From Anaerolineae bacterium (lineage in GTDB: Bacteria > Chloroflexota > Anaerolineae > B4-G1 > SLSP01): a stretch of 26,513 bases of DNA. This document shows positions 55 through 23,218 of this stretch, one piece after another. The position numbers were made by a program, and so were the translations under genes. A model generated the notes under the pieces. That model ran no database searches. It was not told where the DNA came from and was given only the letters and a program-made list of their open reading frames with translations. Every line of letters starts with the position of its first letter. Position 1 is the stretch's first letter. The stretch lies in assembly GCA_016927095.1 (NCBI GenBank), contig JAFGNI010000633.1, positions 1 through 26,513 of the forward strand, read 5' to 3'.

Positions 55-163
55 TGACGCTATCTCCGCGCAGGTTGCTGGCGCCGCAAGCGAGGAGCGC
101 AGCGCAGCCCGTGATGGCGCTGAGAACGGGGCGGGTACACATCACCGGGTGGATACGCAATGA
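2..163 (+). CDS. 3' end of an upstream operon gene (partial)
   Basis: An open frame runs from the left edge to a TGA at 161-163, giving 53 visible residues. It begins with two and a half copies of a PPDGGS hexapeptide, continues with an Ala/Glu-rich stretch, and ends with a GTHHR peptide encoded by one of the palindromic repeats just before the stop. The stop overlaps the ATG of the next gene (ATGA, 160-163), which is the same coupling seen at other junctions in this operon. No domain can be assigned from the tail alone. The repeat content and position make it likely to be another member of the GAF receptor set, but that is inference. Its 5' part lies outside the window. Confidence 0.7.
   Translation, partial: PPDGGSPPDGGSPPDDGFDAISAQVAGAASEERSAARDGAENGAGTHHRVDTQ
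133..149 (+). repeat. short palindromic element, imperfect stem, at gene junction
   Basis: The loop ACACATC is flanked by GGT and ACC, with imperfect outer pairs. It encodes GTHHR at the end of the upstream gene and finishes 10 nt before the start codon at 160. Confidence 0.7.
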
Positions 164-3021
164 AGCGTGATGTGTCGCAGACTGTGGCAGTACACCCCAC
201 TGCTCCGGAAGTGCGATCCGCCAGAATCAGGCGGTTGGTCTCTGCTATGGCCGTTTTCGCGATCCTGGCATCTGCCGCCAATGTGGCTCTGTACGTGGTG
301 ACCGGGGCTTGGCAGCACGTCGGTGGCGTCGTGATCGTCGCGGTCATGCTGGTTGTCGCATGGTATGTCAAGCAACTCGTCGATTGGGGGCGCAATCGGG
401 CGGCTGAGGCCTGGACAGTCGCGGCGCCGCTGATTCTCATCGCACTCACTTCGCTGCTCTGGCAGGGCGTTGCACTGGCGTTGGCTCTGATGGCCTTTGG
501 TGTTGGCGTTCTATTTGCCGTGTTGATGCTCCGACCTGAGCGCCGTGCTCCAGCCGTGTTGGTGAGTGCGGCGGTTGGTATCACGATATGGCTCACAGGC
601 TCCGTCAGCTTTCCCTGGGATCGCTTTGATGCAGGTGGTCACGCGATCAATGACACGATCTTGCGCATACTGAGTATCGGGGCCCTCGGCGTTTTGGTGT
701 GGCGCCTCGTGGTGGGCTACCGCCGGCTCATCGCCATCCGGTCGCGCCTGGTGGTCACTTTCATTGCGGTAGTGATTGCGGTAGCGCTGGCTGTAAGCCT
801 GACATCCATTCTCCTGGGCGTTAGTACCACCCAGCAGAGGACCCTCGACCAGCTGTACACAGCGGTGGTCCTCAAGTCGCGGGCGGTCGACACGTGGCTC
901 GACGACTTGCGTTTTGCCCTGGAGTCGTTGGTCGTTGATGAGTACGAACATGAGCGCGTGCAAGCCGTGCTGCTCCGTAACCAGTCCGATGAGTACCGGG
1001 CATCGGCAGCTCAGGAACTGCGGATTCGCTTCAGCACCCTGATCGAACGAACCCGGTGGTTCACCGAAATTCTCCTCATCGATTCGAACGGAGAGGTGGT
1101 GCTATCTACCAACCCCAACAACGAAGGGCGTAACGTGGCGAGTAGTGCCTACTTCCAGGAAGGCTTGCAGGATTTCTACGTGAATCCGCCGCGTTATGAC
1201 CCGCTTGTTGATGGCATCACCATCATTGTGGCTCAGCCGCTGCGGACAGTAAACGTGCCCGACGCAGTCGGCGAGACTGCTCCGTCTGATGAGACCACAT
1301 ATGGCGTTATGGCGGCGCGAACTGATATGGGCCAACTGAACGTCATCGCGTCGACAGGGCAGATTGGGGACAGCGGGACAACAGACTTTGTGAGCACGGA
1401 CTACTTGCTGCTAACCGGACGCTCGGTGGCTGGCGGGTATATCCCTGTTCAGAGCGAGGCCATCGAGTCTGCTTTGAACCGAGTCATGGGGATTCGACGG
1501 GGCATCTATTCAAGCCATCGAGGCGTCAGGGTCTCGGGTGCCTATATGTGGTTGCCTCGTCTCCAGGTCGCGCTCTTGATGGAGCAAGCGCAGAGCGAGG
1601 TACTGTCAGCCGCCATCACCACCTCTCTGGCAAACGCGGGTGTGGCACTCTTGGCGGTGGTTGTGGCTGTGACGATTGCGATTGCGTTTGCCAACAGCAT
1701 CGGCCAACCGCTCTCCGATCTGGCGGCGACGGCGACGCAGGTCGCGGGTGGAGATCTTGATCTGGTGGCAGAGGTCGTGCGGGACGATGAGGTCGGCGCT
1801 GTGGCGCGGGCTTTCAATGCGATGACCGCGCAGCTACGTGATCTGATTGTGGGCCTTGAGGAACGCGTGGAAGAGCGTACCCGGGGGTTGCAGGCCGTGG
1901 CTGAGGTCTCCAGGGCGACCACCTCCGTGCTTGATTTGGATCGACTTCTGCCTCAGGTTGTGAACTTGGCCCAACAGCGCTTCGGCCTCTACTACGTGGG
2001 CCTCTTCTTGACGGATGATGCCGGTATACATCACCGGAGTGCCGGTATACATCACCAGGATCGTGAGTATGCGGTTCTTAGGGCGGGCACGGGCGCCGCC
2101 GGTCGAGAGATGCTGGCTCAGGGATGGGCGCTGGCGGTTGGTGGTCAATCGATGATCGGGCAGTGCGTCGCCACGGGTAAGGCCGTGATCAAGCAACAGG
2201 CGGGTGATGAGGTCGTGCGTTTCGAGAATCCGTGGCTTCCGGACACGCGCTCGGAGTTAGCCCTACCGCTCCGCTACGGTGGCAATGTCATCGGCGCCAT
2301 GACAGTCCAGAGCACCGAGTCCCGGGCCTTCGATGAGACTGCCATCGCCGTCTTGCAGAACCTTGCGGATCAGGTGGCGGTTGCCGTGCAGAATGCGCGC
2401 CTGTTCGCAGAGACGCAGGCTGCCCTAGACCGTGTTCGCCGCGCACAGCGGCGGTACGAACGCCAGGCGTGGTCTGAGTATCTCAAGTCCCTACCTCACG
2501 CTAGAACGAGTGGGTCCGTACACGCGCCCGGTGCAGTCGGCGCCACGGCTGGGACCGTAGTCTACGAGCAGCCGGGGGGCACCGTCGAGCGGCAGGCTCC
2601 GGATACGCGCATCCTTTCGGAGATCCAGGCGCCAGAGGTCCAGGCTGCTCTCGCGTCCGGACAACCGGTGTCGATCGATCACCAAATCCTGGTGCCGATT
2701 ATGCAATCCGGTCAGATCGTTGGAACCGTGGGGGTTCTACGGGACACCGCCTGGTCCCAAGAGGATGTGACGCTGGTTCAGAACCTCGTTGAACAGCTAG
2801 CTCTCGCTGCAGAGAACCAGCGACTTCTCGATGTCACTCAACGGCGTGAGGCGGCTGAACGCCTGACGCGTGAGGTCACGATGCGTATGCGTGAGCCTGT
2901 CGAATTGGAGGATGTCCTCAGAACCGCATCGGAGGAGATACGCGCGGCCTTGAACTGCGATTGGGTTGTTGTTCGGATGGCTGGTGGCCATGCAACAGAG
3001 GAGGACGAGCATGTGGCATAG
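160..3021 (+). CDS. membrane sensor: 7 TM, dCache-like domain, HAMP, GAF domains, no output domain
   Basis: The protein has 953 residues. Hydrophobic segments at about 28-48, 54-70, 85-104, 106-124, 131-149, 169-187 and 196-221 form a membrane module. A roughly 260-residue extracytoplasmic region follows, with double-Cache features (ILLIDSNGEVVLSTN near 304-318). Then come a further TM at 492-511, a HAMP linker at 512-565 and a short coiled coil. A well-formed GAF lies at about 585-750 and a degenerate GAF-like unit at 765-890. The C-terminus stops at residue 953 after only the first helix and strand of another GAF (895-940). There is no kinase, cyclase or DNA-binding domain, so a receptor role is inferred. 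Palindromic repeats encode the peptides near 10-14, 364-372, 622-633 and 787-797. The start overlaps the previous stop (ATGA), and the ribosome site (GGTGG at 148-152) is weak. Confidence 0.9.
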   Translation: MKRDVSQTVAVHPTAPEVRSARIRRLVSAMAVFAILASAANVALYVVTGAWQHVGGVVIVAVMLVVAWYVKQLVDWGRNRAAEAWTVAAPLILIALTSLLWQGVALALALMAFGVGVLFAVLMLRPERRAPAVLVSAAVGITIWLTGSVSFPWDRFDAGGHAINDTILRILSIGALGVLVWRLVVGYRRLIAIRSRLVVTFIAVVIAVALAVSLTSILLGVSTTQQRTLDQLYTAVVLKSRAVDTWLDDLRFALESLVVDEYEHERVQAVLLRNQSDEYRASAAQELRIRFSTLIERTRWFTEILLIDSNGEVVLSTNPNNEGRNVASSAYFQEGLQDFYVNPPRYDPLVDGITIIVAQPLRTVNVPDAVGETAPSDETTYGVMAARTDMGQLNVIASTGQIGDSGTTDFVSTDYLLLTGRSVAGGYIPVQSEAIESALNRVMGIRRGIYSSHRGVRVSGAYMWLPRLQVALLMEQAQSEVLSAAITTSLANAGVALLAVVVAVTIAIAFANSIGQPLSDLAATATQVAGGDLDLVAEVVRDDEVGAVARAFNAMTAQLRDLIVGLEERVEERTRGLQAVAEVSRATTSVLDLDRLLPQVVNLAQQRFGLYYVGLFLTDDAGIHHRSAGIHHQDREYAVLRAGTGAAGREMLAQGWALAVGGQSMIGQCVATGKAVIKQQAGDEVVRFENPWLPDTRSELALPLRYGGNVIGAMTVQSTESRAFDETAIAVLQNLADQVAVAVQNARLFAETQAALDRVRRAQRRYERQAWSEYLKSLPHARTSGSVHAPGAVGATAGTVVYEQPGGTVERQAPDTRILSEIQAPEVQAALASGQPVSIDHQILVPIMQSGQIVGTVGVLRDTAWSQEDVTLVQNLVEQLALAAENQRLLDVTQRREAAERLTREVTMRMREPVELEDVLRTASEEIRAALNCDWVVVRMAGGHATEEDEHVA
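187..203 (+). repeat. short palindromic element, GCAGT/ACTGC class
   Basis: GCAGT (187-191), loop ACACCCC and ACTGC (199-203) give a perfect 5-bp stem. It encodes AVHPTA in the cytoplasmic N-terminal tail of the sensor. Confidence 0.85.
1246..1280 (+). repeat. composite (long-form) palindromic element
   Basis: This 35-nt copy has outer arms ACAGT (1246-1250) and ACTGC (1276-1280). Between them are AAAC and an inner palindrome with CCGAC (1259-1263), loop GCA and GTCGG (1267-1271). It encodes VNVPDAVGETA in the extracytoplasmic Cache-like domain. Confidence 0.8.
2020..2058 (+). repeat. two tandem short palindromic elements, 21-nt period
   Basis: The first copy has GCCGGT at 2020-2025, loop ATACATC and ACCGG at 2033-2037. 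The second copy begins 21 nt later at 2041, and its right arm has decayed to ACCAG. They encode AGIHHRSAGIHHQ in a GAF loop where homologous GAF units in this operon have only a few residues. Confidence 0.9.
2515..2549 (+). repeat. composite palindromic element
   Basis: Outer arms TCCGT (2515-2519) and ACGGC (2545-2549) pair over four bases, CCGT with ACGG. They enclose ACAC and a 19-nt inner module (2524-2542). The element encodes VHAPGAVGATA in the linker before the degenerate second GAF. GGTCC and GGACC on either side could extend the stem. Confidence 0.75.
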
Positions 3022-4891
3022 CCTGCTACGTTGGTTCTCGCTGCCTACCATGCCGGTACACATCACCGGTGAGGGGGAACCGGAGCGGACTCACAATGCC
3101 CGACTGCTCAATGCTTTCTTGCTGCTAAGCCTCGTCGCTGTCCTGGTCTACACGCTGGGAAGCATCATAGTTGGCGATGGAGTAACTGTAGGTGTCTCCA
3201 TGGGCCTTGGCACCTTCACTGTTCTAGCCTTCGTCGCGTTAGTGTTGCTGCGTCAGGGCTATGTCAAAGCGGTGGGTGTGTTTGTGGTTCTGCTCATGTG
3301 GTCCTTCTGCACCTACCTTGTTCTTCGATTTGGCGGCATTCATGATGAGGCCGTCCCGGGCTTCTTTCTCGTCACCGCAGCCGCAGGTCTTATTCTGGGT
3401 TGCAGGGGTGTTCTGGGCTTCTCGGTCCTGGGGGGCGTTGCGCTGGTGTTAGCCTATTACCTCGAGCGTGCAGGCCGGCTGAATACCACGGATCTGCTTC
3501 CCTCTGATCCCCGCGATCTTGTCGCTGTCCTCGTCCTTCTGGGGTTGATGGGTTTCTTCGTCCAGTATGCCGTCCGGCGATTGCAGGCGATGGCGGCGCT
3601 GGCTCAACAGAACGTGGATGCGTTTTCCGGTGCCAAACGCGCCCTGAAGGCCAGCCAGGATGCCCTGAACAGAGAGCGAGAACGCCTGCTTGGGAAGCTC
3701 CAGGCGTCGATGAGTGTGGTGCAAGCTGCGACCGCGGCGGTAGACACCACCGCTGCGGCGGTAGACACCACCGCTGCGGCGGCAGACGTCACCGCTAGTG
3801 TGCCGGCTGCGCCGGTTGGTGAACGTGCTGGAGAGGAGGTGGCAAGCTCTGGCCAAGGGCCCTGGCAGCATCTGTTTGATCGGGTTGCTGCTGCGATTGC
3901 CAGCGAATTTGGCTGTGACTACGTTGCCATCTTCTGGATCGACCAAGCGGCTGGCGTCGTCACGCGGCGAGCGGTGTCGGGTTCGGCGGCGACCGGACAT
4001 CATGCGCCGGCACACATCATCGCACTGCGGATCGCTGAGGGATTGGCAGGTTTGGTCGCTGCCGATGGCGAGCCCAGGCTGGCAGGAGATGTGACACTCG
4101 ATCCGGATTTCGTGGCCGCGCCTGAATTGCCAAACGCGCGCAGCGAGATGGCTGTGCCGATTGTCTTCAGAGGAGAGATCGCTGGGGTGCTGGATGTGCA
4201 GAGCACGCGGTTGCACGCTTTCGATGAAGAGGATCGGGTTGTGCTGCAGGCGTTGATGGCGCATCTGTCGCAAGCGATTGACAATGCGCAACTCCTGCAG
4301 GACCTGCGGACCGAGCTCCGGGCTGCGGAACAGGCCTACCAGGACATCGTGCGCGCGGATTGGCGGCGGTTGTTGCGTGACGAGCGCGGCCTTGGTTACG
4401 TCAGCACGGGACAGACGACATTGGCGGTAAACACCACCGCGGCGACGGATAGGGCTCAGCTAGACTTGACGGCCCCTGGCTATGAGATGACTGAGACCGC
4501 CGCCCGGTCCATGGTTCGCGTGCCGGTGGAGCTGGCGGGGCAGGTCATTGCCGAGATCCAAGCCCACCTGCCTCCTGAAGCCGGAGGCTGGACCGAAGAG
4601 CGCATGGCGATGCTAGAGACTCTGTCGGCGCAATTGTCCCAGGCGATGGAGCGCGCCCGCCTGTACCGTGAGACGCAGCGTCGCGCGACGCGGGAGCGCG
4701 TATTGCGTGAGATCTCGGATGAGATGGGGAGAGCCTCCGATCTTTCGTCGTTGATGCGCATTACCGTCGATGCGTTGAACCGGTCCCTGGGTGGGTCGCG
4801 CCTCTACGTGCGGCTGGTCTCGGAGGAAGATACGCATGCGGTTGCCAGGGATGGCAGTGGTTCTGAGGGAGTGACCTCAAATGGGCGGTAG
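3011..4891 (+). CDS. membrane GAF sensor: 6 TM module plus GAF domains, no output domain
   Basis: I chose the ATG at 3011 because a strong ribosome site (GAGGAGG, 2998-3004) sits 6 nt upstream. An earlier in-frame start at 2966 would overlap the previous gene much further. The product has 626 residues. Six hydrophobic segments lie at about 33-54, 57-80, 86-105, 117-130, 132-151 and 168-187, and the module is similar to those of the genes at 7917 and 9944. A coiled-coil linker (190-240) is followed by a repeat-encoded Ala/Thr stretch (243-262), a GAF at about 285-430 and a degenerate GAF-like unit at 440-555. The C-terminus ends after the first part of another GAF (560-603). It overlaps the upstream gene by 11 bp and the downstream gene by 11 bp. 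A receptor or scaffold for the shared kinase is inferred; no enzymatic domain is visible. Confidence 0.9.
   Translation: MWHSLLRWFSLPTMPVHITGEGEPERTHNARLLNAFLLLSLVAVLVYTLGSIIVGDGVTVGVSMGLGTFTVLAFVALVLLRQGYVKAVGVFVVLLMWSFCTYLVLRFGGIHDEAVPGFFLVTAAAGLILGCRGVLGFSVLGGVALVLAYYLERAGRLNTTDLLPSDPRDLVAVLVLLGLMGFFVQYAVRRLQAMAALAQQNVDAFSGAKRALKASQDALNRERERLLGKLQASMSVVQAATAAVDTTAAAVDTTAAAADVTASVPAAPVGERAGEEVASSGQGPWQHLFDRVAAAIASEFGCDYVAIFWIDQAAGVVTRRAVSGSAATGHHAPAHIIALRIAEGLAGLVAADGEPRLAGDVTLDPDFVAAPELPNARSEMAVPIVFRGEIAGVLDVQSTRLHAFDEEDRVVLQALMAHLSQAIDNAQLLQDLRTELRAAEQAYQDIVRADWRRLLRDERGLGYVSTGQTTLAVNTTAATDRAQLDLTAPGYEMTETAARSMVRVPVELAGQVIAEIQAHLPPEAGGWTEERMAMLETLSAQLSQAMERARLYRETQRRATRERVLREISDEMGRASDLSSLMRITVDALNRSLGGSRLYVRLVSEEDTHAVARDGSGSEGVTSNGR
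3052..3070 (+). repeat. short palindromic element, perfect GCCGGT/ACCGGT class
   Basis: GCCGGT (3052-3057), loop ACACATC and ACCGGT (3065-3070) pair over five bases. It encodes PVHITG near the N-terminus, about 40 nt after the start codon. Confidence 0.9.
3737..3795 (+). repeat. three tandem short palindromic elements, 21-nt period
   Basis: Copies start at 3737, 3758 and 3779. The first two are GCGGT / AGACACC / ACCGC and the third is GCGGC / AGACGTC / ACCGC. They encode AAVDTTA, AAVDTTA and AAADVTA in the linker between the coiled coil and the GAF domain. Confidence 0.95.
4424..4440 (+). repeat. short palindromic element
   Basis: GCGGT, loop AAACACC and ACCGC give a perfect stem. It encodes AVNTTAA within the degenerate second GAF. 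A decayed relative (GCCGGC / ACACATC / ATCGC) lies at 4006-4023 in the preceding GAF. Confidence 0.85.
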
Positions 4892-7800
4892 AGCGCACCC
4901 ACCTGGCGGCTCCCCGGTGGCGCATGCCATCGCTGGGGCAACCTATCGCTACGCCCGGCCGACCTTGGCGCTCATAGTTTCGGAGCTGGCGCCTGCCTAC
5001 GAGGAGCCACTCTGGACCAGCGTGTCGGCTGCGGCGGAAGCTGCCGGTGTGAATCTGTTGTGCTTCGTCGGTGGGCAGCTGGCGGTACACACCACCGCTC
5101 CGGCGGTACACACCACCGCTCCGGCGTCGGAGTCGCTTCTTGCGAGCGCGAGAAACGCAATCTATGAATTCGTCAGGCCCGGCATCGTTGACGCCGCTGT
5201 CGTTGTTACGTCGTCGATAGGCGTTGGCGTCCCGCTGGATGAACTCCAGGCACGGGTTTTGCAGCTAACTCGCCGCGCAGATGAGCCCCGCCGTGTGCGT
5301 GGGTCCCTCCCGGTGGTCAGTCTTGGCGTAGCCCTCGAAGGCGTTCCCAGTGTCGTCGCCGACAGTGTGTCGGGGATGCGAGAAGCAGTGACGCACTTGG
5401 TCGAGCGCCACAACTGCCGTCGCATCGCGTTTATCCGCAGCCCAGAGGGGCAGTGCACACCGGAAGAGCTGCGCCCCGGAGGGCATATCCTTCTATCAGC
5501 GCACGAGCGTTATGATGCCTATCGACAGGCTCTGGAAAACGTGGGTATTGCGCTGGACCCTGATCTGGTTGTGACAGAAGATTCTGTGTCTGGCGTCAGT
5601 CCCATCGTCGAGTTGCTGGACCATCGGGGTGTCAACCTCGATGCAATCATGGTTGCCAACGACGCGATGGCATTCCCGGTGATCGAGGAGCTCCGGCGTC
5701 GAGGCCTGCAGGTACCCCAAGATGTGCGTGTTGTTGGATTCGATGATATGTTCGAGAGCCGGTTCTCTGTGCCGTCGCTGACGACAGTCCGACAGCCGCT
5801 TGCGGCCATGGGACGCCAAGCAACGGAAATGGCGCTGGCGATGCTGCGTGGCGAGACCGTGGAGAGTGTCAAGATCCCGACAAACTTGACCGTCCGCGAA
5901 TCGTGTGGGTGCCCGCCAGAGCAGATGGTCACCGCCGACACGATGACCAGGACGGTAAACACTACCGCTGCGGCGGTACACACCACCGCTGCGGATGAGA
6001 TCCCGCGTCGCCTGGAGGCATCACAACGTGAGGCCGTGGTTCGCGATGCTGGGCTGCGGATTCTAGGTGAGTCGGAACCCGATGGTGTGGTGGCTGCACT
6101 CGCTGATGGACTGCCCAGAATTGGGGTAGAACGCGCCTTGGTGGTGCTCTATGAGGACGATGCGTATCTGGGCGGTGGTGCTTCTACATCCCCATCTGCC
6201 AACGGACCTACATCGCTGAAAGCAACCCCACCTAAGGGTTCGGACCGCGCACGGTCAGCTACGGTGGTGCTGGCGTTCCTGTATCCGGAGGATGTTTCAG
6301 ATCAAGGTCTGGTGGTAGACGATGGCACTAAACATCACCGCGGGGCGCCATCGCGACGCTTCGACGGCGCAGCTTTTGTCCCTCCCGAGTTCCTTCCCTC
6401 TGACCGGCGCTTCAGCTTCGTCGTAGAGCCGCTCACGGCAGCGGAGAGCCGTGCGGGTGCGGGTGCCGGTGCCGGTATACATCACCGGACACATCACCGG
6501 ACACACCAACGGCTCCTTGGCTATGTCTTGTTTGAGCCCGGACCTCTCGATGGCGTCTCCTACGATGCGCTGCGTGGCTACCTCAGCTCGGCGTTGCATG
6601 CCGCGCTGTTCTCGGAGTCGATGCGCCGGCGCGCGGAACAGCTGCAGGCCACGGTAGAGGCGGTCGGCAGTATACGCCACTGTTTCGGCAGCGCGCTCTA
6701 TGGTGGCAGCAGCGAGGTTGACGGCGGTGCCGCACCAGACCGGTTGGCCCAGCATATCGTGGACACCCTGCAACGTCGTCTAGGGGTGGACTTCGCTGGC
6801 ATCTTCCTGGTGGAGGAGCAGGGGGCCACCTACTGGACTGGCACTGGCGAGGTGGGTGCTCGAATGCGCGCGGATGGCCTCCGGCTCCGGATTGGCGGTA
6901 GCTCCGCTGTGGGACAGGCTGCTCTCACCCAGCGAGCCCAGTTTGTGAGCGATCAAGACTTGGCCCGAGCAGACTTGGGTTTTCCGTCAGGCTCGAGTAC
7001 TGGTGTCGGTTCGAGAGAGACTGTCCGCGATCAACAGAACGGGACGAGCTATCCTATCCGCGTGGGCGATCGGTATTTGCCAGACACTCGGGCGGAGTTG
7101 GCTCTACCTCTGCTGGGTCGGCAAGGCTTGTTAGGTGTCCTGAGCCTGAGAAGTACCGTTCCGGGCGCCATCCGCCGGTCAGACATCGATGGACTACAGG
7201 TACTAGCGGACCAAGTGGCAGGAGCGATTGAGAATGCTGAACAGCTGAAAGAATCGCAAGCCGCGGTTCGTGAGCTGCGGGCGGCGCAGCGCCGGTATCA
7301 GCAGCAGGCCTGGTCCGATTACCTAGCCGCCGTGCGCATCCCAGGATATGAGCTCGGCGGGAACGACGACTCGCCCTTACCTGACGAAACTGTCGCGCGT
7401 GAGGTCGAAAGGGCGCTTTCCGAAGAGAGACCGGTGGTGTTGGGACCCGACGATGATCCAGATTGGGCCGGTACACTTCACCGGGCCGGCACACATCACC
7501 GGGATGCGTCTGCGTTGGTGGTTCCCATCAACTACAGTGGGGCTCCGATTGGGGCGCTTGGCATCCATGACGATGCTAGCCGCAGTTGGACGGAAGATGA
7601 AGTCTCACTTGTGACCGCGGTCGTCGAGCGGATGGGGCTGGCGGCCGAGAACCTGAGGCTGCTCGATGAGACGCAACGTCGCGTTGCTACTGAGCGGCTG
7701 ACGCAAGCCATCACAGCGCGTATGCGCCAGACGTTGGACATTGGCCAGGTGCTGCAGGCCGCAGTACGCGGATTCGCGGAAGCCTTCGATGCTGAGGAAG

Positions 7801-7913: not shown

Positions 7914-7916
7914 CCC

Positions 7917-12000: not shown

Positions 12001-15000
12001 TGCGTAGAGGGCTTCGTCTGGGCGGGCGCGTGTTCCTGCTGGTGGCGGGGATATCGTTACTAGTGGTCACGCTGCTGCTCTTGCTGGGACAGCAGCATCG
12101 GGAGGCCTACCTTGTGGTCGGGGAAGGCGCTAACTCGGTCAAGCCATCGCCGCTTCCCCTGATCATCACCGGCCTTACGGCTGCTGCTGGCATTGCTACG
12201 CTCGTCAGCTTGGGTCTGTATTTGCTGGCGCTCCGCTCTCTCAACCGTCTCGCTGAGGGTGCGGCCATGATTGGAAGCGGTGACCTGACACATCGCATCG
12301 TGCTTGACCGCGAAGACGAGCTTGGGCTGGTGGCCCAGGTTCTCAATGATATGGCTGAACGTGTCAGCCTCCTGGTGTCGGGGCTGGAGCAGCGTGTTAA
12401 GGAGCGTACCGCTGCATGGGAGCGGCGCGCTGCGCAGTTGGAGGCGGCCAACCTCGTCGGTCAGGTGGTAGCTCGCCAGCGAAATGTGAACGCCCTCCTC
12501 GATGCTGCGGTGAACGCAATCTCCGACAGCTTCGGCTTCTATCACGTGGGCATCTACATCCTAGATGACAACCGTGAGTGGGCGATTCTCCGGGCGGCTT
12601 CCTCTGAGGGCGGCAAGCGTATGCTCAACCGAGGCCATCGTCTCCAAGTAGGCGGCAGGTCACGCCACTGCTTCGTTGGTGTTGTCGAGACTGTGGCCAC
12701 GAGCGGGCGGCCGCGCATTGCCTTCAATGAGGGACAGGACGCGGTCTGGTTCCAGAATCCGGATCTCCCCCGGACCCAGGCGGAGATTGCCCTGCCGCTG
12801 ATGGCCGAGTGTGGCGTCGTCGGAGTCTTGGACATCCACACCGATCGCCCCGTTGCCGACGACGGCGGTACACATCACCGCTCGAGCTTCACCGATGATG
12901 ACATCGGGACGCTGCAGTTGGTGGCAGATCAGCTGGCGACCGCACTCACTAGCGTGCGAGGCATCGAGACGATCGAGGCGAAGCTGGAGGAACTGCAGGC
13001 CCTTCAGGTTGACTACTCGCGCCGAGGGTGGGCACGCGTGGCGCGCCGTATGCGCCCGATGGCTTACGAATACGACCGGGTCGAAACGACGCCGGTGCCC
13101 CCACTGCCGGTCCCTGACGATCTCGCCGAGGGCCGCACGCCACACAAGATCGTGATGGATGGGGGCATGCCCGTCGTCTTGGACGCATTGCGCGTCGGTG
13201 GTCGAACGCTGGGCTTCTTGGGGCTCTCCGATCCGCAGCGTGTCTGGTCGGATGAAGAACTCGCTCTGGTGGATAGCGTAGGTGAGCAGGTCGCACTTGC
13301 ACTCGAAAATGCGCGTCTGTTTGAGGACACTCAGAGCAATGAGCGGCAGCAGTATCTCATCAGCAGTGTACTTCAGGTGGCTTCCAACCCCGACTTCAGC
13401 GCTGAACACGTGCTCAGGGAGATTGCGAGCATACTGGCGCAGGGCCTCGACATGGTCGTGGTCATCTTCACTTTCCCATATCCCGGACGCCCGGTCGTGC
13501 GCTCCCATGCCGTGGTCGATCCAGATGGACAGCAGTTGACGCTATTTGAGGAGGATCTTGTCCTCTCTCGGGAGCACTACATCTTCTTTCAGGGCCTGGA
13601 GACGGCCGATCTTGGACCTATGGGCCCGCTGTTGGGATCGCACTGGGAGCCAGGTACTGGACTGGTTGCTCCGGATGGGGCGTCGTCCAGTTCGCAGCTA
13701 GGTCAGGTTTCGTGGTTACGGACGGAGGCGCTTGCGGACCGCTATGATCTGGAACGCGTCCTCTATGTGCCGATGCGGAGCGCGGGGGCCCGAGCGGACT
13801 CGGGGGGCCGAAGTGGTTTCATCGGTTTTATCCAGCGTGCGGCGTCACCACCGCTCGATCCCGACACCCGCGACTTGGCTCAGAGTCTGGCGAGCCAGGT
13901 TGCTGTCGTGCTGGAGAACCTCAATCTCACCCAGGAGACGCGCCAGCGCTCGGAGGAGTTGCGCAAGCTCTACAGAATCTCACTAGACCTGAGCGAGCAG
14001 CTCGCCCCCGACGATGTCCTGAATCGCATTGTGGAGCAGGGCGCTTTGCTACTCGCGGCTGATGCCGCCAACCTCTGGATCTACCAAGCTCGCCCGAACT
14101 GCGGTTCGCAAACGAGCTCGACTGAGGTGCTGCAACTGGCTTACGAGTACCAGGGCGGCGCCGAAGGACATTTGGGCTATACATCCCGGGGCGACGGGGG
14201 GCTTGCCGGTGCGGCCCTTGCTGGACGCCAGACGATTTTCGTCGATGACTACGCCAGTTGGGAGGGACACATTCCCGAACTCGTGAGTCCTCGCTTTCAT
14301 GGGATGATGGCCGTACCATTGGTGGGCCGATTTGGGCCTTTGGGCGTCTTCGTTGCACTCTCTGAACAGGCGGGTGCCTTCGGGGAGCGCGAGGCAGGAC
14401 TGGCTGATCTCTTTTCTGCACAGGCTGCGACCGCACTCGAGAATGCTCGACTCAATGAGGACGCTCAGCGACGTGCTGAGGAGTTCTCGCAGCTCTATGA
14501 AGCCGGAATCGATCTGATCACGATCCTCGACGCTGAAGAGCTGCTGAAGCGAGCGGCGGATTGGGCGCGAGAGATCTTTGACGCTGAGCGAGCGGTTGTC
14601 CTCCTGCAGGATCCCCGGTCGGAAACGTTCGTACAGGGCATCAGCGCTAGCGATCCTGCATATATGCTGCTTGAGGAGGATGGTACAGATCATCGGGGCG
14701 GTGAACATCACCGCGGCGGTGGTTCGGTTGAGACCGAGGCGGTAAACATCACCGCGGCGGTAGACGCGCCGGACCCAGTCGGCGTCGGTACCATCCGAAC
14801 CCGCGAGAGTTTGCTCGTGGCCGACAACCGCGATTCATCGTTTCCTGGCGCGGTACGTCTGGTTGATGTGGGTCTGCTATCTCAGATGGGCACGCCGCTG
14901 CGTATCGGCGATGAGGTGCTGGGTGCTCTCTTCGTCGATGGCGCAGAGCCCGGGCAGTTCAGCGAGGGGGATGTCGCACTGCTGGAGTTCCTTGCGGCCC

Positions 15001-16517
15001 AGGTCTCATCGGCGCTTCAGAACTCGATCCAATTCGGTCAGACCGGGGAAGCTCTTGCCGTGGTTGGCCGGCAGGCACGCTATCAGACCAACATCTCCCA
15101 AGCCGTGGCCCTTCTGAACGATCGTGGCACGGCTGCGACCGTGGACGTGCTTCGACTGCTGAGTGATGCCGCCGAAGCCCCTATGATCATCTATTACGAG
15201 GCTGCGGGCAACCAGGATCAGCCAGCTTGGCGGCTCAAGGAATCCTGGGTAGTGGAGGAACGCTCGCCCAGCGACAGCGATCCCCATCGTCACCTAGATG
15301 ACGGCTCGCTGCAGTTGCTGGATCCCGCTCGCCTGGCTACCTGGCGCCAGATGCTGGTTGAGAACGGGCAAGCGATGGCTACGTGCGACAACCTCGCCCA
15401 GGACAACCTCGCCCAGGACAGCGTCTCCCAGGATGACCTCCCCCTTGACGAGTGGGCAGCTCTCTTCCCCTTCGAGTCTGGTGCTGTGTTGGGGCTTGGT
15501 GTGCCAGGGCAGGCTGAGATTCCCGGTTTCTTAGCCCTGTTCCGAGACACGGTGGAACTCTGGCATGAGCAGGAGATTGTTGCGCTTCAGACCGTAGCGG
15601 CTGCCCTCTCCAATACCCTTGCTCGTGAGACGCTCTTCCAGCAGGTGCAGGATACACTACGGGAGACGGAGGCACTCTACCGTGGTGGCGCTGCCCTGAG
15701 CGAGGCCAGTACCTATGAAGGCATTCTCGAGGTGCTCTTGGCTCACTCGGTGCTGGGTCGTGAAGTTCGGACCGCCACCGTGCTCCTCTTCGACCGACCG
15801 TGGAACGGCGAGCAGCGACCGGCGTACGCGGAGGTTGTGGCTCAGGGCGGTATGCACCGCCGCGGCGAGGAGCCGGAGGCGGAACTGCGCCGACGCTACC
15901 GGTTGGATGGGTTCCCCATGACGTTGCAGGTCATGCAGGATGGATCACCGGTCTTTGTGGAGGATCTCGAAACCGACACCATCCTAGACCGTCGCGCTCA
16001 CGCTTTGTTCGGTCGCGTGATGGGCGCCAGAAGCGTTGTGCTCATGCCGCTGATCGTGGGTGGTCAGCGGATCGGCTTCATTCACGCAGGATACGCATAT
16101 CCACAAGCCTTCTCCGAGGCAGAGCGCCGGCGACTGGTCAGCCTCGTGCAGCAGGCAGCCATTGTTGTGCTCAACATCCGCCAACTTCGCGCTACTGAGG
16201 CCCGCGTGCGCCGGGAGCAGTTGATCCGGCAGATCACCGGGCGAATCCAAGAGGCGCCAGATGTGGATGGTGTTCTGCAGACTGCCGTGCGGGAGATTGG
16301 ACGCGCTCTGGGCACGTCGCGCAATCGCATTCAGTTTGGACCGCGTGGTCACGGAGGTCCCCAGGAGCCGAAGGCGGCTGACATCGCCGGTACACTTCAC
16401 CGGACCGCGGCGGCAGACGCGCCCGACGCAGTCGGCGCCACCGCTGTGCAGCCATCGTCAGGCTCGAACGACACGATGGCTCCGACCGATCCAAGTGCGG
16501 ATGTTGACCATGATTGA
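12000..16517 (+). CDS. membrane sensor: 2 TM, HAMP and about seven GAF domains, no output domain
   Basis: The protein has 1505 residues; GAGAGG at 11985-11990 precedes the start. TM1 at about 9-30 and TM2 at 52-74 flank a short 20-residue external segment, so it is unlikely to bind a large external ligand. HAMP lies at 76-131 (GSGDLTHRIVLDREDELG). GAF or GAF-like units follow at about 145-325, 330-445, 450-645, 650-815, 820-1010, 1015-1215 and 1225-1395, and a truncated GAF start at 1400-1445. The C-terminal tail (1450-1505) is low-complexity and repeat-encoded. A short DNLAQ repeat lies in the sixth unit. It has no kinase or effector domain even though it is the second largest protein here. 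It overlaps the hybrid kinase gene by 8 bp, so direct partnership with that kinase is a reasonable inference. Confidence 0.9.
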   Translation: MRRGLRLGGRVFLLVAGISLLVVTLLLLLGQQHREAYLVVGEGANSVKPSPLPLIITGLTAAAGIATLVSLGLYLLALRSLNRLAEGAAMIGSGDLTHRIVLDREDELGLVAQVLNDMAERVSLLVSGLEQRVKERTAAWERRAAQLEAANLVGQVVARQRNVNALLDAAVNAISDSFGFYHVGIYILDDNREWAILRAASSEGGKRMLNRGHRLQVGGRSRHCFVGVVETVATSGRPRIAFNEGQDAVWFQNPDLPRTQAEIALPLMAECGVVGVLDIHTDRPVADDGGTHHRSSFTDDDIGTLQLVADQLATALTSVRGIETIEAKLEELQALQVDYSRRGWARVARRMRPMAYEYDRVETTPVPPLPVPDDLAEGRTPHKIVMDGGMPVVLDALRVGGRTLGFLGLSDPQRVWSDEELALVDSVGEQVALALENARLFEDTQSNERQQYLISSVLQVASNPDFSAEHVLREIASILAQGLDMVVVIFTFPYPGRPVVRSHAVVDPDGQQLTLFEEDLVLSREHYIFFQGLETADLGPMGPLLGSHWEPGTGLVAPDGASSSSQLGQVSWLRTEALADRYDLERVLYVPMRSAGARADSGGRSGFIGFIQRAASPPLDPDTRDLAQSLASQVAVVLENLNLTQETRQRSEELRKLYRISLDLSEQLAPDDVLNRIVEQGALLLAADAANLWIYQARPNCGSQTSSTEVLQLAYEYQGGAEGHLGYTSRGDGGLAGAALAGRQTIFVDDYASWEGHIPELVSPRFHGMMAVPLVGRFGPLGVFVALSEQAGAFGEREAGLADLFSAQAATALENARLNEDAQRRAEEFSQLYEAGIDLITILDAEELLKRAADWAREIFDAERAVVLLQDPRSETFVQGISASDPAYMLLEEDGTDHRGGEHHRGGGSVETEAVNITAAVDAPDPVGVGTIRTRESLLVADNRDSSFPGAVRLVDVGLLSQMGTPLRIGDEVLGALFVDGAEPGQFSEGDVALLEFLAAQVSSALQNSIQFGQTGEALAVVGRQARYQTNISQAVALLNDRGTAATVDVLRLLSDAAEAPMIIYYEAAGNQDQPAWRLKESWVVEERSPSDSDPHRHLDDGSLQLLDPARLATWRQMLVENGQAMATCDNLAQDNLAQDSVSQDDLPLDEWAALFPFESGAVLGLGVPGQAEIPGFLALFRDTVELWHEQEIVALQTVAAALSNTLARETLFQQVQDTLRETEALYRGGAALSEASTYEGILEVLLAHSVLGREVRTATVLLFDRPWNGEQRPAYAEVVAQGGMHRRGEEPEAELRRRYRLDGFPMTLQVMQDGSPVFVEDLETDTILDRRAHALFGRVMGARSVVLMPLIVGGQRIGFIHAGYAYPQAFSEAERRRLVSLVQQAAIVVLNIRQLRATEARVRREQLIRQITGRIQEAPDVDGVLQTAVREIGRALGTSRNRIQFGPRGHGGPQEPKAADIAGTLHRTAAADAPDAVGATAVQPSSGSNDTMAPTDPSADVDHD
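12865..12881 (+). repeat. short palindromic element in GAF loop
   Basis: GCGGT / ACACATC / ACCGC gives a perfect stem. It encodes GGTHHRSS between the DIHTDRP strand and the FTDDDIGTL helix. The paralogue at 9944 reads DIQTLTPSAFTEDDIGTL there without an insertion. A poorly paired relative lies at 12655-12671. Confidence 0.9.
14698..14791 (+). repeat. cluster of two short and one composite palindromic elements
   Basis: Short copies are at 14698-14714 (loop GAACATC) and 14739-14755 (loop AAACATC), both with GCGGT/ACCGC arms. A composite copy starts at 14757 with GCGGT, AGAC and an inner module (14766-14784); its right outer arm is lost. The first is read GGEHHRG and the second AVNITAA, so two frames occur within 40 nt. 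Confidence 0.85.
15391..15436 (+). repeat. 15-nt tandem repeat encoding DNLAQ
   Basis: Two identical 15-nt units encode DNLAQ and are followed by a third diverged unit (DSVSQ) and a trace of a fourth (DDLPL). It is not palindromic and is probably simple slippage in a loop of a GAF-like domain. Confidence 0.75.
15847..15863 (+). repeat. variant short palindromic element
   Basis: GCGGT, loop ATGCACC and GCCGC pair over four bases. It encodes GGMHRRG in a GAF loop and is diverged from the family. Confidence 0.55.
16386..16444 (+). repeat. short element followed by an intact composite element
   Basis: A GCCGGT / ACACTTC / ACCGG copy lies at 16386-16403. A 35-nt composite lies at 16410-16444: GCGGC, AGAC, inner module GCGCCCGACGCAGTCGGCG (16419-16437), CC and ACCGC. 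This is the clearest long form in the window. It lies in the C-terminal tail, 65 nt before the start of the kinase gene. Confidence 0.95.
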
Positions 16518-19500
16518 AATCGGGCATACGAAGCCAGCGACGTCAGGTAATGCTATGCACGTTGCCGAGACAGATTTGACCGAAGAGCTGCTCCGGGATG
16601 CTGAGCGCCGCGCGACGCGTCTGCAGGCAGCGGCTGAGATCTCGCGTGCTGCGACGTCGCAACTCAACCTAGAAGAGCTGTTATCGGAGTCAGTGGAGCT
16701 GATCCGAGCCCGGTTTGATCTGTACTACGTCGGCATCTTCTTGCTTGACGGCGGCGGTAGACCTGACCGCGAGGGACAGTGGGCGGTGCTGCGGGCCGGA
16801 ACTGGAGAGCCGGGGCGCCAGATGCTGGCGGCCCATCACAGATTGCGCCTTGGCGGCGATTCGATGATCGGTCAGTGCGTCGCCACTGGTGAGGCTCGGA
16901 TTGCACTGGATGTGGCTGAAGCAGGCGCGCGATTCGAGAATCCGGTGCTGCCGAAGACCCAATCGGAGATGGCGCTTCCGCTCACCAGTCGCAATCGTGT
17001 GCTGGGTGCGATGACGATCCAGTCGGAGGAGCCTGCTGCGTTCTCTGATGAAGACATCACCGTACTCCAGACGATGGCGGACCAGCTTGCTAACGCTATC
17101 CAGAACGCGCTCCTCTTCGAAGGTATGAACCAGGCTGTGCGCGAGAATGAGCTTCTCTCCAACATCAGCGCCAGGATTGGCGCGGCTGAGACAGTCGAGG
17201 ATCTCGTTTCTGCTTCCCTGGATGTAGCGGTCTTCCTCAAGCTGGACAGTGTTTCCCTATCCGTCTTCACCCGCTGGGATGAGTCCGGGCAGCCGTTGAC
17301 TGCCGAGGTCTATGAGGTCACTACCCGATCTGATACCGCCGGTACACATCCCCACTCGCTCCCGGTACACGGCTTCATACGGCCGGTCGATCGAGCGCTC
17401 TATCTCTGGTATGCACAACGCGCTCGTCGCGATGCAGTGCGAATCGTACGTATCCCAGACGTCCGCGATACAGAAGGCGTGCCCGACGCGGTCGGCGACG
17501 CGCCTGACGCAGCCCACGATATGCCTGACGCGGTTCGGAGCGAGATGCTGGCGCGTGGCCATCGCAGTGTGATTGTGGCACCGTTGACAATCCGTGGTCG
17601 AGACCGTGGCATCCTTGTGCTGGCCGGTGGCGGAGCCTGGGATGATGCGCCCGACGCAGTCGGCGATGTGCCCGACGCAGTCGGCGATGCGCCTGACGCA
17701 GCTGGCGATGCGCCCGACGCAGTCGGCGGTGCGCGCGAACGTGCGCCCTCAGAAGGGAAGGTGCAGGTCTTCGTGCGGACGTTGGTCGATCAGGTTGTCG
17801 CGGCTCTAGACCGCCAGTTTTTGGTGGCGGAGTTGAGTCATCGGGCCACGAATCTCCAAAGGGCTTCGGAGGTCTCCCGCGTCACATCATCCTACCTGGA
17901 CCAGCAGCAACTCCTGGATGAGGGAGCCGAACTGATTTTGGAGCGGTTCGATCTGGCATTTGTAGGCATCTTCCTGGTCGATGATTCCGGCCAATGGGCG
18001 GTGCTCCAATCCAGTGCCGGCGCCGTCGCGGGGGATGAGAAACACGATGCGCTGCAAGTGGGTTACCGGTTACCCATCACCGACGCATCTCGCATCGGGC
18101 GCAGCATCTCACGGCGGGACGTGGTCACAGGCCCAGTAGCGCATGGACCAGCCGGTGCCGGCACCACGGCAGTCCACATCACTGCTACGGCAGTACACAC
18201 CCCTGCTACGGCAGTCCACACCCCTGCTTCGACAGTCCACACCACTGCTTCGACAGTCCACGCGCCCGACGCAGCCGGCGCCATTGCTGATCGCGCTGAG
18301 GCTGTGTTTCCGCTGATTAGCCAGGGACGGATTATTGGCGCGATCATGGTCCAGTCGGACGCGGTTTCCGGTCTCTCTGAGGGTGACTTGGCGATCTTCT
18401 CCACACTAGCGGCTCAGTTAGCCAACGCAATTGCGAACGCCCAGCTCTATGAGATGTCTCAGCTGAACCTCCAGGAGCTGCAACGGCTGCAGCAACGCTA
18501 CGCCCTGGAGATGTGGGATGACTATGTAGCGCGCCAAGATATCTTGGGCTACGCCTACGATCTGAACGAGATCACACCACTGACGGCGGCGGTAGACGCG
18601 CACGACGGAGTCGGCGTCACGGCGGTGGCAAACGCGCCCGATCTGGTCGGCGCCTCCGCTGGCGCCTTGAGCCAGACGCTTGAGATCCGCGGCGAGCCGG
18701 TGGGTATGATGAGCTTTGAGGAACCGGGCACGCCAATGGCTTGGTCGGAGGACCAGGGCGGTGAAGATCACCGCTTGTCGGTGCTGGAGGCCGTGCGCGA
18801 GCAACTTGAGTTGGCGTTGGAGAATCGGTTGCTGATCGACCGTTCACAGCGTGCTCTCCGCGAGGCTCGGCAGCGAGAGTCAGAACTGGGCTTTCTACAG
18901 GAGGTCTCGGCTCTGCTGAACACCACGAGCGATGTAGTAGCATCCCGCGGCGAATTCTATCGCCAGCTCAAGAGCTTCCTGCCGCTAAGCCAGCTAACGC
19001 TCACAGGATACGACAGTGATTCGGGTCGCCTCACCTGGTTGGCAAGTGAAGGTGATCGTGCGACGGTTCACCGCGGCGGTGGACATCACCGCTACGGGGA
19101 CGGGGCCTCCGATCTTGAGGGCTCGGGGTTTGACTGGGCCATAGCGAATCAGTCGGTTGTTGTGGAGGATGATCTGAGGGTCGATTCCCGCTTCTCTGAG
19201 GATGTGCGTTTGGTGGCTGCTGGCGTAGCGTCGCGCGTCATTCTCCCGTTGCGGCTGGGATACCGTACGATGGGTGCTTTGGAGCTCGCCAGTGATGAAC
19301 CGGCTGCCTTCACAAGACCTGGCCTGAGGCCAATCCTCCAACAGGTCGCGTCCCAGGTAGCATCGGCGATGGAGCGGGGAAATCTGCTCCGCGTGGCGCA
19401 ATCCAGTGCTGAGGAATCCCGGCGACTCTATGAGGTGACCAGCGATCTGGCTGAGGCTGCGGATGCCTCCGACATCTTGGATGCGATTGCGCGCCACGCA

Positions 19501-22500
19501 CTTCCTGTGGGCGGCGGTATACACCACCGCGGCGGCGGCAGACATCACCGCACGGCTCGAGCGGAAATCGGGCTTTTCGTGGTTGACCCTGAGACTGGCA
19601 TGGAGCAGGAGTGGCTTGAGATCGTGGCAGTGCACGACACTGCTTCGGCGGTGCACGACACTGCTTCGGCAGTACACGCGCCCGACGCAGCCGGCGGTCC
19701 CTTGCCCAGCCAACAGGCCTCTTCCGAGATGGATTCGCTCCATTTGGGTGCCCGACTGCGCATCTCCGAAGTACCTGCGTTGCAGCTGTTGGGTGACCAG
19801 CAGATGGCGATCTCGGAGGACATTGCGAGTGATCCTGGTCTGAGCCCAGAGGTGCGAGCGTCCTATCTTGCCCAAGGGGTATGCGCGCTTGTGGTTCTGT
19901 CGCTCTCCACTGGGATGGGCACATATGATCGCATAGGCATACTGCAGATCCGATTCGCCAGTCCCTACCGTGTGACAGAGGAGGATCGCCGACTCTATCG
20001 CACGATCTCCGAGCAGGCTGCCGTGGTGCTTGCTAACCGGCAGCTCTTCCAAGAGTCGCAGTCCAGGATCATGCGTCAGGCGGTCGCCGTGGAGTTGGCC
20101 AACCTGACGACGTCGTTGTCGGAGCGAGAGGGGCTGCTCGAGACCTCGGTGGAATTTTTGCGGGATCGTTTCGATCTCTACTTCGCCGGCATCTTCCTTG
20201 CCGATGACCTGCGCCAATGGGCGGTCTTGCAAGCCGGGAGTGGCGACGTGGGCGAGCGCTTGATGCTGATGGGGCATCGTGTCCAAGTGGACGGCAAGAC
20301 GATGGTTGGGCGTTGTCTCGAGCGCCGGTCCCGTATCTTGTCGCTAGATATTGACCGTGCGACCGCTGTGTTGGAGAACCCGCTTTTGCCAGAGACGCGT
20401 TCCGCCGTGGTATTCCCCCTAGTCAGTCGTGGGCAGACGAACGGTGCCATCACGCTCCAGAGCACGCAGCGATTCGCCTTCACGCAAGAGGACTTAGGCA
20501 CACTGGAGCTGATGGTCAACCAGCTCGCTAACGTGATCGAGAGCACCAATCTCTACGAGCGCTCCCAGGCCTCGTTGGCCGAAACGAGGATGCTTTATCG
20601 GATTGCCCAGCAGATCACCGATGCCAGGGAGGCAGATGCGGTGCTACAGGCGGCTGTCGAAGGTATCTCCCAACGAGCCGAACCTGACTGGGTGATTGCT
20701 GGTCTGTTGGAGCCCCGGCAGAATCCCACCTCGCTACGCATCTCCGCCTCCTGGAGCCGCGATGGCGTGCCTTTCCCCCGCGAAAGCTTGTCGCTGGAGA
20801 GCATCCGGCACTTCTACGATGTCCTGCGCTCCGATGAACGGTTTGTCACCCCGAACATCACTCAGGATCCTATGGTTGACGACCTCATCCAGCGGATCTA
20901 CAGCGACCTCGGGCTCCGGGCTACGGCAGCCTTCCAGCTCAGCGTGCGTTCACAGCAGTATGGCACGATCATGGTCCATAGCCAGACTGCGCGGGAGTTC
21001 TCCACCGCTGAACTGAGCTTCTACGAGAACGTGGCGCGCCAAGCCTTTGTGGCACTTGAGAACATCAGCTTGGTCGAGACAACGCGGGAACAGGCCGAGC
21101 GACGAGATATCCTCAATGAGGTGTTGCAGACCGCGTCGAGTTCGCTGGAGCAGTCACACATTCTCCAGGATGTCTCTCAGGTTATCGCCCGCCGTTTGGC
21201 TATGCCCGTGCTTGTCTGGGAGTGGCATGGGATATCCGCTCTGCCGGTGGCGGCTCACGATGCCGGAGGCGCTGTCCTGGCTACCCCGGATGACCAGGGC
21301 GGTCAACATCACTGCTTCCAGCTCCAAGGTCCGGCCATGGAACGCATTCACAGCGCGCTCCTCACTCACCAGCCGATGGATATTGCATTTGGCAGTCAAG
21401 GAAAGCTTGTCGGGCTGCGCACTGAGCCAGCATCTGACTTGGTGGATGGATATGCCGTACCTCTCGTTGCGCGTGATGAGGTCTATGGTGTGATGGTGCT
21501 GGGGAGACAGATGGGCCATGAACGGATCGACGAGCCGGAGCGGGAGTTCATGCGCACAGCGGGCGCTAATGTCGCCGTGGCTTTGGAGACCGCCACCCTT
21601 TACTTGGATGCTCAAGAGACGGCAGAGAAGCTCAAGGAAGTCGACGAGCTGAAAAATCAGTTCATGGCCAATATGTCGCATGAGCTGCGAACCCCGTTGA
21701 ACTCGATCATCGGTTTCTCTCGGGTGATGCTGAAGGGCATAGATGGTCCTCTGACCGAGATGCAGGAGACGGATCTTGGCGCCATCTACGAGAGTGGGCG
21801 CCATCTCTTGAATCTGATCAACGATATTCTCGACATCTCCAAGATCAACGCCGGCAAGATGGAGGTCATCTTCGAGCCCGTCGATCTGAAGTCCATGATC
21901 CAAAGTTCTATGTCGACGGCAATGGGCTTCGTCAAAGACAAGCCGGTTAGGTTGCTTACAGATGTGCCGGACGATCTGCCCCTGGTCGTGGCGGACTCGC
22001 GCCGTATCCGGCAGGTGCTGATCAACCTGCTTGGCAATGCGGGCAAGTTCACCGATGAGGGTTTCATCAAAGTCTCGGTATCTTCCGATGACTATCAGGT
22101 GCTCGTGAGCGTCCAGGATACCGGCATCGGTATTCCTCCCGACCGCATCCACGCTGTCTTTGAGCAGTTCGAGCAGGTAGATTCGAGCTCCAGTCGCCGC
22201 TATCAGGGCACCGGGCTTGGCGTTCCGCTGAGTCGCGAGTTCGTGCGTCTCCATGGCGGCGACATGTGGATCCAAAAGAGCATCGTGGGAGAGGGGACGA
22301 CCTTCTGCTTCTCCTTGCCCATTGGCGGCCCTGACTCGGTGCAGGAGAGCCTGCCGCTGCGGGATGCAGCTCAGGGTCGGATCGTGCTGGTTGTCGACGA
22401 CGACGAAGCAGTGATCACGCTTTTCCGCCGGTATCTTGAAAGGCAAGGCTACAAGGTCTTTGGCTTGACTCGAGGGGATCGGGTCATTGAGGAGGCGGTA

Positions 22501-23151: not shown

Positions 23152-23205
23152 GGAAAGTGATGTAGCATTTCACTACTGACAGCTGGTCTAGCTTATTTGT
23201 GCGAT

Positions 23206-23211: not shown

Positions 23212-23218
23212 CAATGCC

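Follow-up and report, generated by a model that had tools for sequence, protein, structure and literature searches.

Why should a run of bacterial sensor genes be strewn with copies of one short palindrome? The question is raised by the window analyzed here, the whole 26,513-nt stretch JAFGNI010000633.1, which is one metagenome contig of an Anaerolineae-like Chloroflexota. In it, a co-directional run of sensor genes (160-23127; GAF, HAMP, dCache, LacI-type, and kinase/receiver domains) carries many copies of an 18-nt hairpin, here called unit A. We read these copies as hairpin insertion units that were copied as nucleic acid into pre-existing sensor genes, and that may have been pasted as single strands; to this reading as a whole we give a probability of about 0.5.

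Unit A has 5-bp arms and a loop NNACNNC, and its 18 nt correspond to six codons (consensus GGCGGTNNACNNCACCGC). Arm variants include CCGGT/ACCGG (CCGG class) and GCAGT/ACTGC (GCAG class), and copies depart from the consensus at few positions each. A scan for 5-nt arms with at least 4 pairs and a core near NNACNNC gave 51 matches on the + strand and 8 on the - strand. We retained 47 of the former as A copies, at 33 places between 131 and 21315 (Table 1). The matches at 2533 and 16428 were dropped as parts of a second module, B (see below), and that at 15988 because its loop lacks AC; the match at 25241 (in QueA) has the core letters, but its arms TGCGT/ACGGA belong to no class, and it is not among the matches, up to E 1, of a model built from the copies (R1). 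Of the eight minus-strand matches, five coincide with symmetric + copies and the other three are weak; all 24 perfect copies are on the + strand. The first-pass annotation had claimed more than 50 hairpins within eight genes. The named hairpin comes to 47, and 50 is exceeded if the 14 copies of B are added; the figure of eight genes is correct if it includes the one truncated at the left end of the window (2-163), with 43 copies inside genes and four further copies intergenic (11821-11901).

These numbers are far above chance. The seven complete genes hold 22 perfect copies; when their codon order was shuffled in frame 1000 times, the average was 0.006 and the highest count 1. A looser A pattern was found 39 times in them, compared with a mean of 0.43 and a maximum of 3 in as many shuffles. 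Hairpins of 5 bp with 7-nt loops number 61, compared with 33.6 +/- 5.6 in 100 shuffles. Covariation in the arms fills 22 two-sided cells (6.4 +/- 1.8 in shuffles), two of the five pairs varying on both sides; it is real but derives from three arm classes. At loop position 6, T stands in all 11 CCGG copies and in 11 of the 36 others (p = 4e-5, tandem copies counted apart), so arm class and loop covary and define subfamilies, as expected of copies of copies. The predicted folding of four copies as single-stranded DNA gave -3.4 to -7.8 kcal/mol. Close neighbors are always direct, at a spacing of 18 or 21 nt, with zero inverted pairs.

The copies are distributed over all three reading frames (19, 21, and 3 in frames 0, 1, and 2, with 4 intergenic; n = 47), and the peptide examples of the first-pass annotation read as it gave them (GTHHR/GIHHR at 2020, 8794, 12865, and 19514; VHTT/VHIT/VNTT at 3052, 5082, and 8901; YTSP/HTSP at 8161 and 9987). 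The third position of codon 2 is A in 21 of 21 frame-1 copies (3.1 expected from codon usage) and C in 19 of 19 frame-0 copies (10.0 expected). Counted by place, the frames are used 11:18:3, which agrees with the 12.8:15.9:3.2 expected from the availability of the flanking trinucleotide GAY described below (p = 0.76); usage spread evenly over the frames is rejected (p = 0.005). Because frame usage fits GAY availability, peptide selection is unnecessary to explain it. The three frames together with the intergenic array, the conserved third positions, the match between frame and target, and the insertions relative to orthologues support the conclusion, already drawn in the first-pass annotation, that what was copied was the nucleic acid rather than the peptide.

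Orthologues were compared for genes 1, 3, 5, 6, and 7, since genes 2 and 4 had only ~30% identical full-length homologues. Element residues fell in columns absent from every orthologue in 83 of 223 cases, compared with 326 of 6060 other residues (odds ratio 10.4, p = 2e-43), and four element inserts each add six residues, the number of covering orthologues differing among them. At 18757-18774, GAC CAG is followed in the window by 18 nt and then TTG, whereas the related genome G443 has GAT CAG TTG. The window has gained exactly 18 nt (six codons) here, and no target site duplication accompanies them; this is the only site with identical flanking codons in a relative, the others being too diverged to tell. 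P0122, the closest gene 1 orthologue (its start is incomplete), is without the inserts at 1249 and about 2520, and carries a GIHHH motif at a different site from the window copies. Window inserts have arms of at least 5 nt more often (42%, 24 inserts) than matched stretches do (15%; p = 0.03). From these alignments with orthologues, we conclude that many A copies are insertions into pre-existing sensor genes. A general rule that all relatives bear palindromic inserts was rejected, as 72 pooled inserts of relatives, including those of the genome G434, gave no excess (p = 0.73).

The insertion places share a sequence signature. In a frame-free scan, GAY stands at -7 to -5, three bases before the unit (GAY-N3), in 17 of the 33 places, compared with 0-5 at 17 other offsets. 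By frame, it precedes 7 of 11 places in frame 0 (background 0.049), 9 of 18 in frame 1 (background 0.061), 0 of 3 in frame 2, and the single intergenic place. At the clean site 18757-18774, all three orthologues have GAY as well, which makes it target, not cargo, at that one site. GAY-type targets number 880 on + and 799 on -, and all 33 places are on +. Reversed copies would have stops in 1, 23, and 0 of 47 cases in the three frames; none was found in the window, though they would be open in two of three frames, so stops alone are insufficient to explain their absence. Because the copy-bearing genes are all co-directional, replication and transcription are indistinguishable as the cause of the strand preference.

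Module B is also 18 nt long (GYGCCCGACGCAGTCGGC and variants), with 14 copies in the window. Eight of these follow a clear A-type 5' half and one a doubtful half; among the B copies with a preceding A half, an A-type 3' half comes next in six, clear in four and partial in two, forming A+B composites. Five B copies occupy a further stretch of gene 7. The two A+B composites that were folded did no better than shuffles. A third palindromic unit of 18 nt is the tandem repeat GCCGCCTGACGGCGGTTC at 1-50, in the end of the truncated upstream gene, where it is read PPDGGS.

We then turn to the distribution of the A family. A search of 84,980 genomes for the exact tandem pattern gave six stretches, five in other phyla and one in an Oscillochloris metagenome-assembled genome (MAG); these six are treated as chance or local repeats, none being clearly of the A family. 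In the Oscillochloris MAG (L006:682-728), two GCGGTAGACGCCACCGC copies lie 30 nt apart and score 24.7 bits with model R1; this pair is the closest resemblance to the A family among the outside stretches scored, and the view of chance or local repeats does not explain it. The single-copy pattern occurs at most 9 times per genome in 400 Chloroflexota and at most 3 times per genome in 48 members of the closest order identified; if a leading G is required, the maximum is 2 per genome in 396 genomes of the class, compared with 12 in the 26.5 kb of the window (the Chloroflexota sets overlap and together comprise 752 genomes). A search of related Chloroflexota with a model of the copies, a check named in the first-pass annotation, gave at most 2 R1 matches in each of the 48 genomes of the nearest order and any match in only 5 of them (150 candidates scored per genome). 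On the window, R1 recovered 46 of its 47 training copies at E < 0.01, which is no independent test, since the model was trained on those copies. In 20 loci from 15 related genomes there were zero perfect copies, with a best R1 match no better than E 0.55, and viral contigs, plasmids, and Rfam gave zero matches. As far as the collections searched show, the A family appears private to an unsampled lineage. No description of it stands among the literature matches listed, which comprise titles and abstract openings and leave subscription papers largely outside; the genome scans and these matches are consistent with the earlier suggestion that the family may be new.

How might such a unit spread? 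We propose that an enzyme acting in trans would recognize the folded hairpin and conserved loop of unit A in single-stranded DNA and would paste the unit on one strand, downstream of a short sequence; the best-known model for this is offered by the Y1/HUH enzymes of IS200/IS605 and repetitive extragenic palindromic (REP) elements. Such enzymes bind small hairpins, a short sequence by the 5' foot of the hairpin sets cleavage, and the lagging-strand template is used (PMC6006769). Genes would tolerate most insertions, the unit having a length divisible by three and no stops in frames 0 and 1; selection would then have retained copies in loops, linkers, and protein ends, and the 21-nt tandem arrays would have arisen later by local duplication. 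Of 15 close genomes, 9 contain Y1_Tnp; G443 has 26 matches, several of them with internal stops. These genes show availability, nothing more. G443, rich in Y1_Tnp, also has a syntenic sensor cluster. A more specific proposal, that unit A is a single-strand element of 18 nt (below the sizes given for the mobile repeats compared), selective for GAY-N3 sites, fixed in strand, and adapted to genes through whole codons and freedom from stops in the two target-favored frames, is offered tentatively and at less than even odds.

Several observations weigh against the proposed insertion and pasting. The number of covarying pairs is no higher than in shuffles, the covariation being confined to two of five pairs and three arm classes, and one of the four single-stranded hairpins was equalled by 20 of 200 shuffles. 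Outside the columns absent from every orthologue lie 140 of the 223 element residues, and the alignment scored no gap for the copies at 186, 5951, 5972, 9987, and 19075. The GAY signature was recognized post hoc, is missing at 16 of 33 places including all 3 frame-2 places, and could be part of a longer element; CGR at +19, in 14 of 33 places and 0-4 at 14 other offsets, is likewise non-random. The rarity of frame 2 may also be explained by stops, present in that frame in 8 of the 47 forward copies. A transposase domain is absent from the eleven window proteins scanned, and IS200-type elements are two-ended, whereas a single hairpin is found here. Finally, the last 5.2 kb (21316-26513, with the kinase/receiver end of gene 7, a PHP-like gene, and QueA) hold zero catalogued copies, only the dropped match at 25241, which may reflect constraint or local confinement.

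Local copying through replication errors is the main rival. It would require no transposase: hairpin template switching, slippage, and ectopic gene conversion in a repetitive multi-GAF locus would spread the copies, and each arm would be kept perfect by its partner serving as template. Template switching has been reported both to generate paired arms in hairpins and to preserve them (PMC8794818), the 21-nt tandem arrays resemble plain duplications, the A family is seen only in this GAF cluster, and G434 also concentrates unrelated palindromes in its own. However, the 33 places share loop and 18-nt unit in unrelated contexts, a GAY at fixed offset is not expected from slippage, and the inserts of three orthologues (L098, L101, and L109, with 7, 12, and 25 inserts) show no palindrome excess; we regard this explanation as possible but doubtful. 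Selection of the hairpins as RNA elements in an operon mRNA, for pausing, stability, or translation control, would fix their orientation and agrees with catalogued copies that are all on the sense strand of one co-directional run. It leaves the tandem arrays and the placement in protein loops unexplained, and the four 18-mers fold weakly as RNA (-4.1 to -9.9 kcal/mol), the commonest form preferring another fold. The lack of an Rfam match and of perfect copies in the 20 related loci also speaks against an RNA element, and we hold it to be quite improbable.

A repeat at the protein level, a His-rich or AVHTTA linker under peptide selection, would account for copies in loops, linkers, and ends, and for the PDAVG-type peptides encoded by B in 11 of 12 pattern matches (one is in another frame). 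It is contradicted by the three frames, the intergenic copies, and the third-position conservation, and we reject it. The first-pass annotation had looked to a single frame and a peptide conserved across homologues as the mark of such a repeat; instead, among 134 sensor-gene homologues and 119 QueA homologues, the strict frame-1 motif occurs in P0122 only, and a looser one 5 times in these 253 proteins. Equally hard to credit is a recognition site, such as an uptake, methylation, or recombination signal, that accumulated without insertion: a short conserved motif with strand polarity would suit it, but many copies are whole-unit insertions, not point-mutated sites.

If unit A does move, as our preferred reading of copied insertion units would have it, the lower size limit for mobile DNA would be very small, and proteins could gain loops of six codons with their reading frames intact. 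The case is relevant to the origin of palindromes within coding sequence, and given the site signature, an exact length, a single strand, and subfamilies, the mechanism can be tested directly with short oligonucleotides.

Table 1. Genes, A copies, and B copies in the window (frames as read in the gene named)
Feature	Position	Strand	Context
Gene 1	160..3021	+	dCache/HAMP/GAF sensor
Gene 2	3011..4891	+	GAF protein; ATG at 3011 chosen, open reading frame listed from 2966
Gene 3	4881..7913	+	LacI-type binding domain + GAF
Gene 4	7917..9947	+	GAF protein
Gene 5	9944..11797	+	GAF protein
Gene 6	12000..16517	+	HAMP + multi-GAF
Gene 7	16531..23127	+	multi-GAF histidine kinase with receivers; open reading frame listed from 16261, start uncertain
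A	131..148	+	C-terminus of upstream partial gene (AGTHHRV), frame 1; one arm mismatch
A, GCAG	186..203	+	gene 1 N-terminus, frame 0; not scored as gap in orthologue alignment
A, two copies, CCGG, 21-nt spacing	2020..2058	+	gene 1 GAF loop, frame 1; missing in two orthologues; P0122 stretch there unlike
A, CCGG	3052..3069	+	gene 2 N-terminus, frame 0
A, three tandem copies, 21 nt	3736..3795	+	gene 2, frame 0
A	4423..4440	+	gene 2, frame 0; GAC at -7
A, two copies	5081..5119	+	gene 3, frame 0; second scored as insert vs homologues
A, two copies	5951..5989	+	gene 3, frame 0; 5951 and 5972 not scored as insert
A, CCGG	6471..6488	+	gene 3, frame 1; insert; then partial repeats
A, GCAG	6666..6683	+	gene 3, frame 1; insert
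A, two abutting copies, CCGG, 18-nt spacing	7467..7502	+	gene 3, frame 1
A	7833..7850	+	gene 3 C-terminus, frame 1
A, CCGG	8161..8178	+	gene 4, frame 2 (HTSP)
A	8537..8554	+	gene 4, frame 0
A	8793..8810	+	gene 4 GAF loop, frame 1; GAC at -7
A	8900..8917	+	gene 4, frame 0; GAT at -7
A, CCGG	9912..9929	+	gene 4 C-terminus, frame 1
A, CCGG	9987..10004	+	gene 5 N-terminus, frame 2 (YTSP); not scored as insert
A, GCAG	10305..10322	+	gene 5, frame 2; six-residue insert vs 4 orthologues
A	11765..11782	+	gene 5 C-terminus, frame 1
A, four tandem copies, 21 nt	11821..11901	+	intergenic, genes 5/6; GAC at -7
A, GCAG	12654..12671	+	gene 6, frame 1; net gain of six residues vs three of four orthologues
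A	12864..12881	+	gene 6, frame 1; within 10-residue insert
A	14697..14714	+	gene 6, frame 1
A	14738..14755	+	gene 6, frame 0; insert; then A 5' half with module B
A, CCGG	16386..16403	+	gene 6 C-terminus, frame 1
A	16753..16770	+	gene 7 first GAF loop, frame 1; +6 residues vs sole covering orthologue without own insert
A, four tandem copies, GCAG	18168..18248	+	gene 7, frame 0; insert
A	18757..18774	+	gene 7, frame 1; clean 18-nt insertion between CAG and TTG, neighboring codons in G443
A	19075..19092	+	gene 7, frame 1; not scored as insert
A, two copies	19513..19551	+	gene 7, frame 1; 13-residue insert
A, two copies, first GCAG	19626..19664	+	gene 7, frame 0
A	21298..21315	+	gene 7, frame 1; GAC at -7
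B in A-like hairpin (A+B composite)	1255..1272	+	gene 1; insert
B in A-like hairpin	2524..2541	+	gene 1
B, diverged	7861..7878	+	gene 3, another reading frame
B after A 5' half	14766..14783	+	gene 6
B in A hairpin	16419..16436	+	gene 6
B	17479..17496	+	gene 7
B, four tandem copies, 21 nt	17647..17727	+	gene 7
B in diverged A-like hairpin	18262..18279	+	gene 7
Two consecutive A+B composites (B at 18598, 18634)	18598..18651	+	gene 7
B after A 5' half	19678..19695	+	gene 7

Beyond the sensor run, QueA (25091-26176, - strand) has its closest named relatives, at 74-75%, in Anaerolineae MAGs, and others at up to 82%; its best match in the genome collection searched is 76%, in G445. G443 and G444 have similar sensor clusters on the same contig as QueA.

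Palindromes of other kinds were observed in related genomes. The GAF cluster of G434 (L104/L105; G434:C57:15001-55000) has its own palindromes, CGNCA-N4-TGNCG, with a covarying middle pair; 18 of 23 are paired in the 40-kb cluster, compared with 0 of 1 over a further 46 kb of that contig and 4 of 14 over 207 kb from other contigs. They stand at tandem spacings of 15 and 18 nt and in several reading frames, and the GAY flank is not present at them. G434 inserts have arms of at least 5 nt in 33% of cases, compared with 12% of matched stretches (24 inserts), and the enrichment of palindromes in inserts is weak (13 of 78 vs 334 of 3838, p = 0.024). The best palindrome family of G434 (p = 1e-4, tandems joined) fails against the several thousand masks tested, and ACGTAG loops there proved to be mostly one tandem array. 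Four GCGGA-N8-TCCGC palindromes (L104:10499, 16386, 18711, and 19570) lie inside long open reading frames of G434 in two frames; one copy has GTAG before it, and they may be a GTAG-type REP. Elsewhere, a dense 41-nt repeat containing GCGGATCGCCAGATCCGC has ten copies in about 630 nt (L147:1297-1927; G427:C131), and an 18-nt tandem repeat of the ATCGGCAGACCGATTCTG type lies at a contig end (L117:7790-7843; G444:C428).

How, then, does unit A compare with known systems? The GTAG/CGTC REP elements (Di Nocera 2013, PMC3733652) and those of RAYT/TnpA-REP transposases (Quentin 2018, PMC6006769) are likewise short multi-copy hairpins with stems from 5 bp; some are lineage-private, some are reported inside genes, and GTAG repeats are reported in Chloroflexi (PMC3733652). 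Within 10 nt of the A copies, however, the 5' side has GTAG in 1 of 47 and CGTC in 0 of 47, and the 3' side CTAC in 0 of 47 and GACG in 2 of 47; reversed tags occur 1 to 4 times. REP elements are mostly extragenic, and head-to-head or tail-to-tail dimers predominate, whereas 43 of 47 A copies are coding (in a window itself mostly coding) and neighbors are direct, never inverted. Unit A also differs in its 18 nt and GAY-N3 signature, and a Y1 transposase is absent among the window proteins scanned. IS200/IS605 elements such as IS608 and ISDra2 use single-strand hairpin recognition, a short left-flank target, and one strand of the fork (PMC6006769). They insert beside a fixed short 5' target on one strand; unit A has GAY at 17 of 33 places, all +, with a target role at one site. 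IS200/IS605 elements have paired-end hairpins of about 20-25 nt flanking cargo, whereas A is a lone 18-nt unit.

Unlike a miniature inverted-repeat transposable element (MITE), unit A has no target site duplication at 18757-18774. The cyanobacterial small dispersed repeat SDR5 (Elhai 2008, cited in PMC4390886) is likewise a very small dispersed mobile repeat with precise insertion at a short site; SDR5 inserts within HIP1 (GCGATCGC), whereas the window has 0 HIP1 sites. Rickettsia palindromic elements (RPEs), the nearest analogy named in the first-pass annotation, are palindromes in frame within conserved protein genes, 105-146 bp long with 12-bp terminal repeats (PMC2229807). The analogy holds for in-frame insertion within open reading frames but not for size and structure, the whole unit A being 18 nt with 5-bp arms. 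The A family does not belong to the GTAG/CGTC REP, RPE, or SDR5 elements. PARCEL repeats (PMC2996958) are likewise palindromic DNA in coding repeats and are thought to be mobilized; they encode a conserved peptide, a 25-residue amphipathic tandem motif, whereas unit A spans six codons and is read in three frames.

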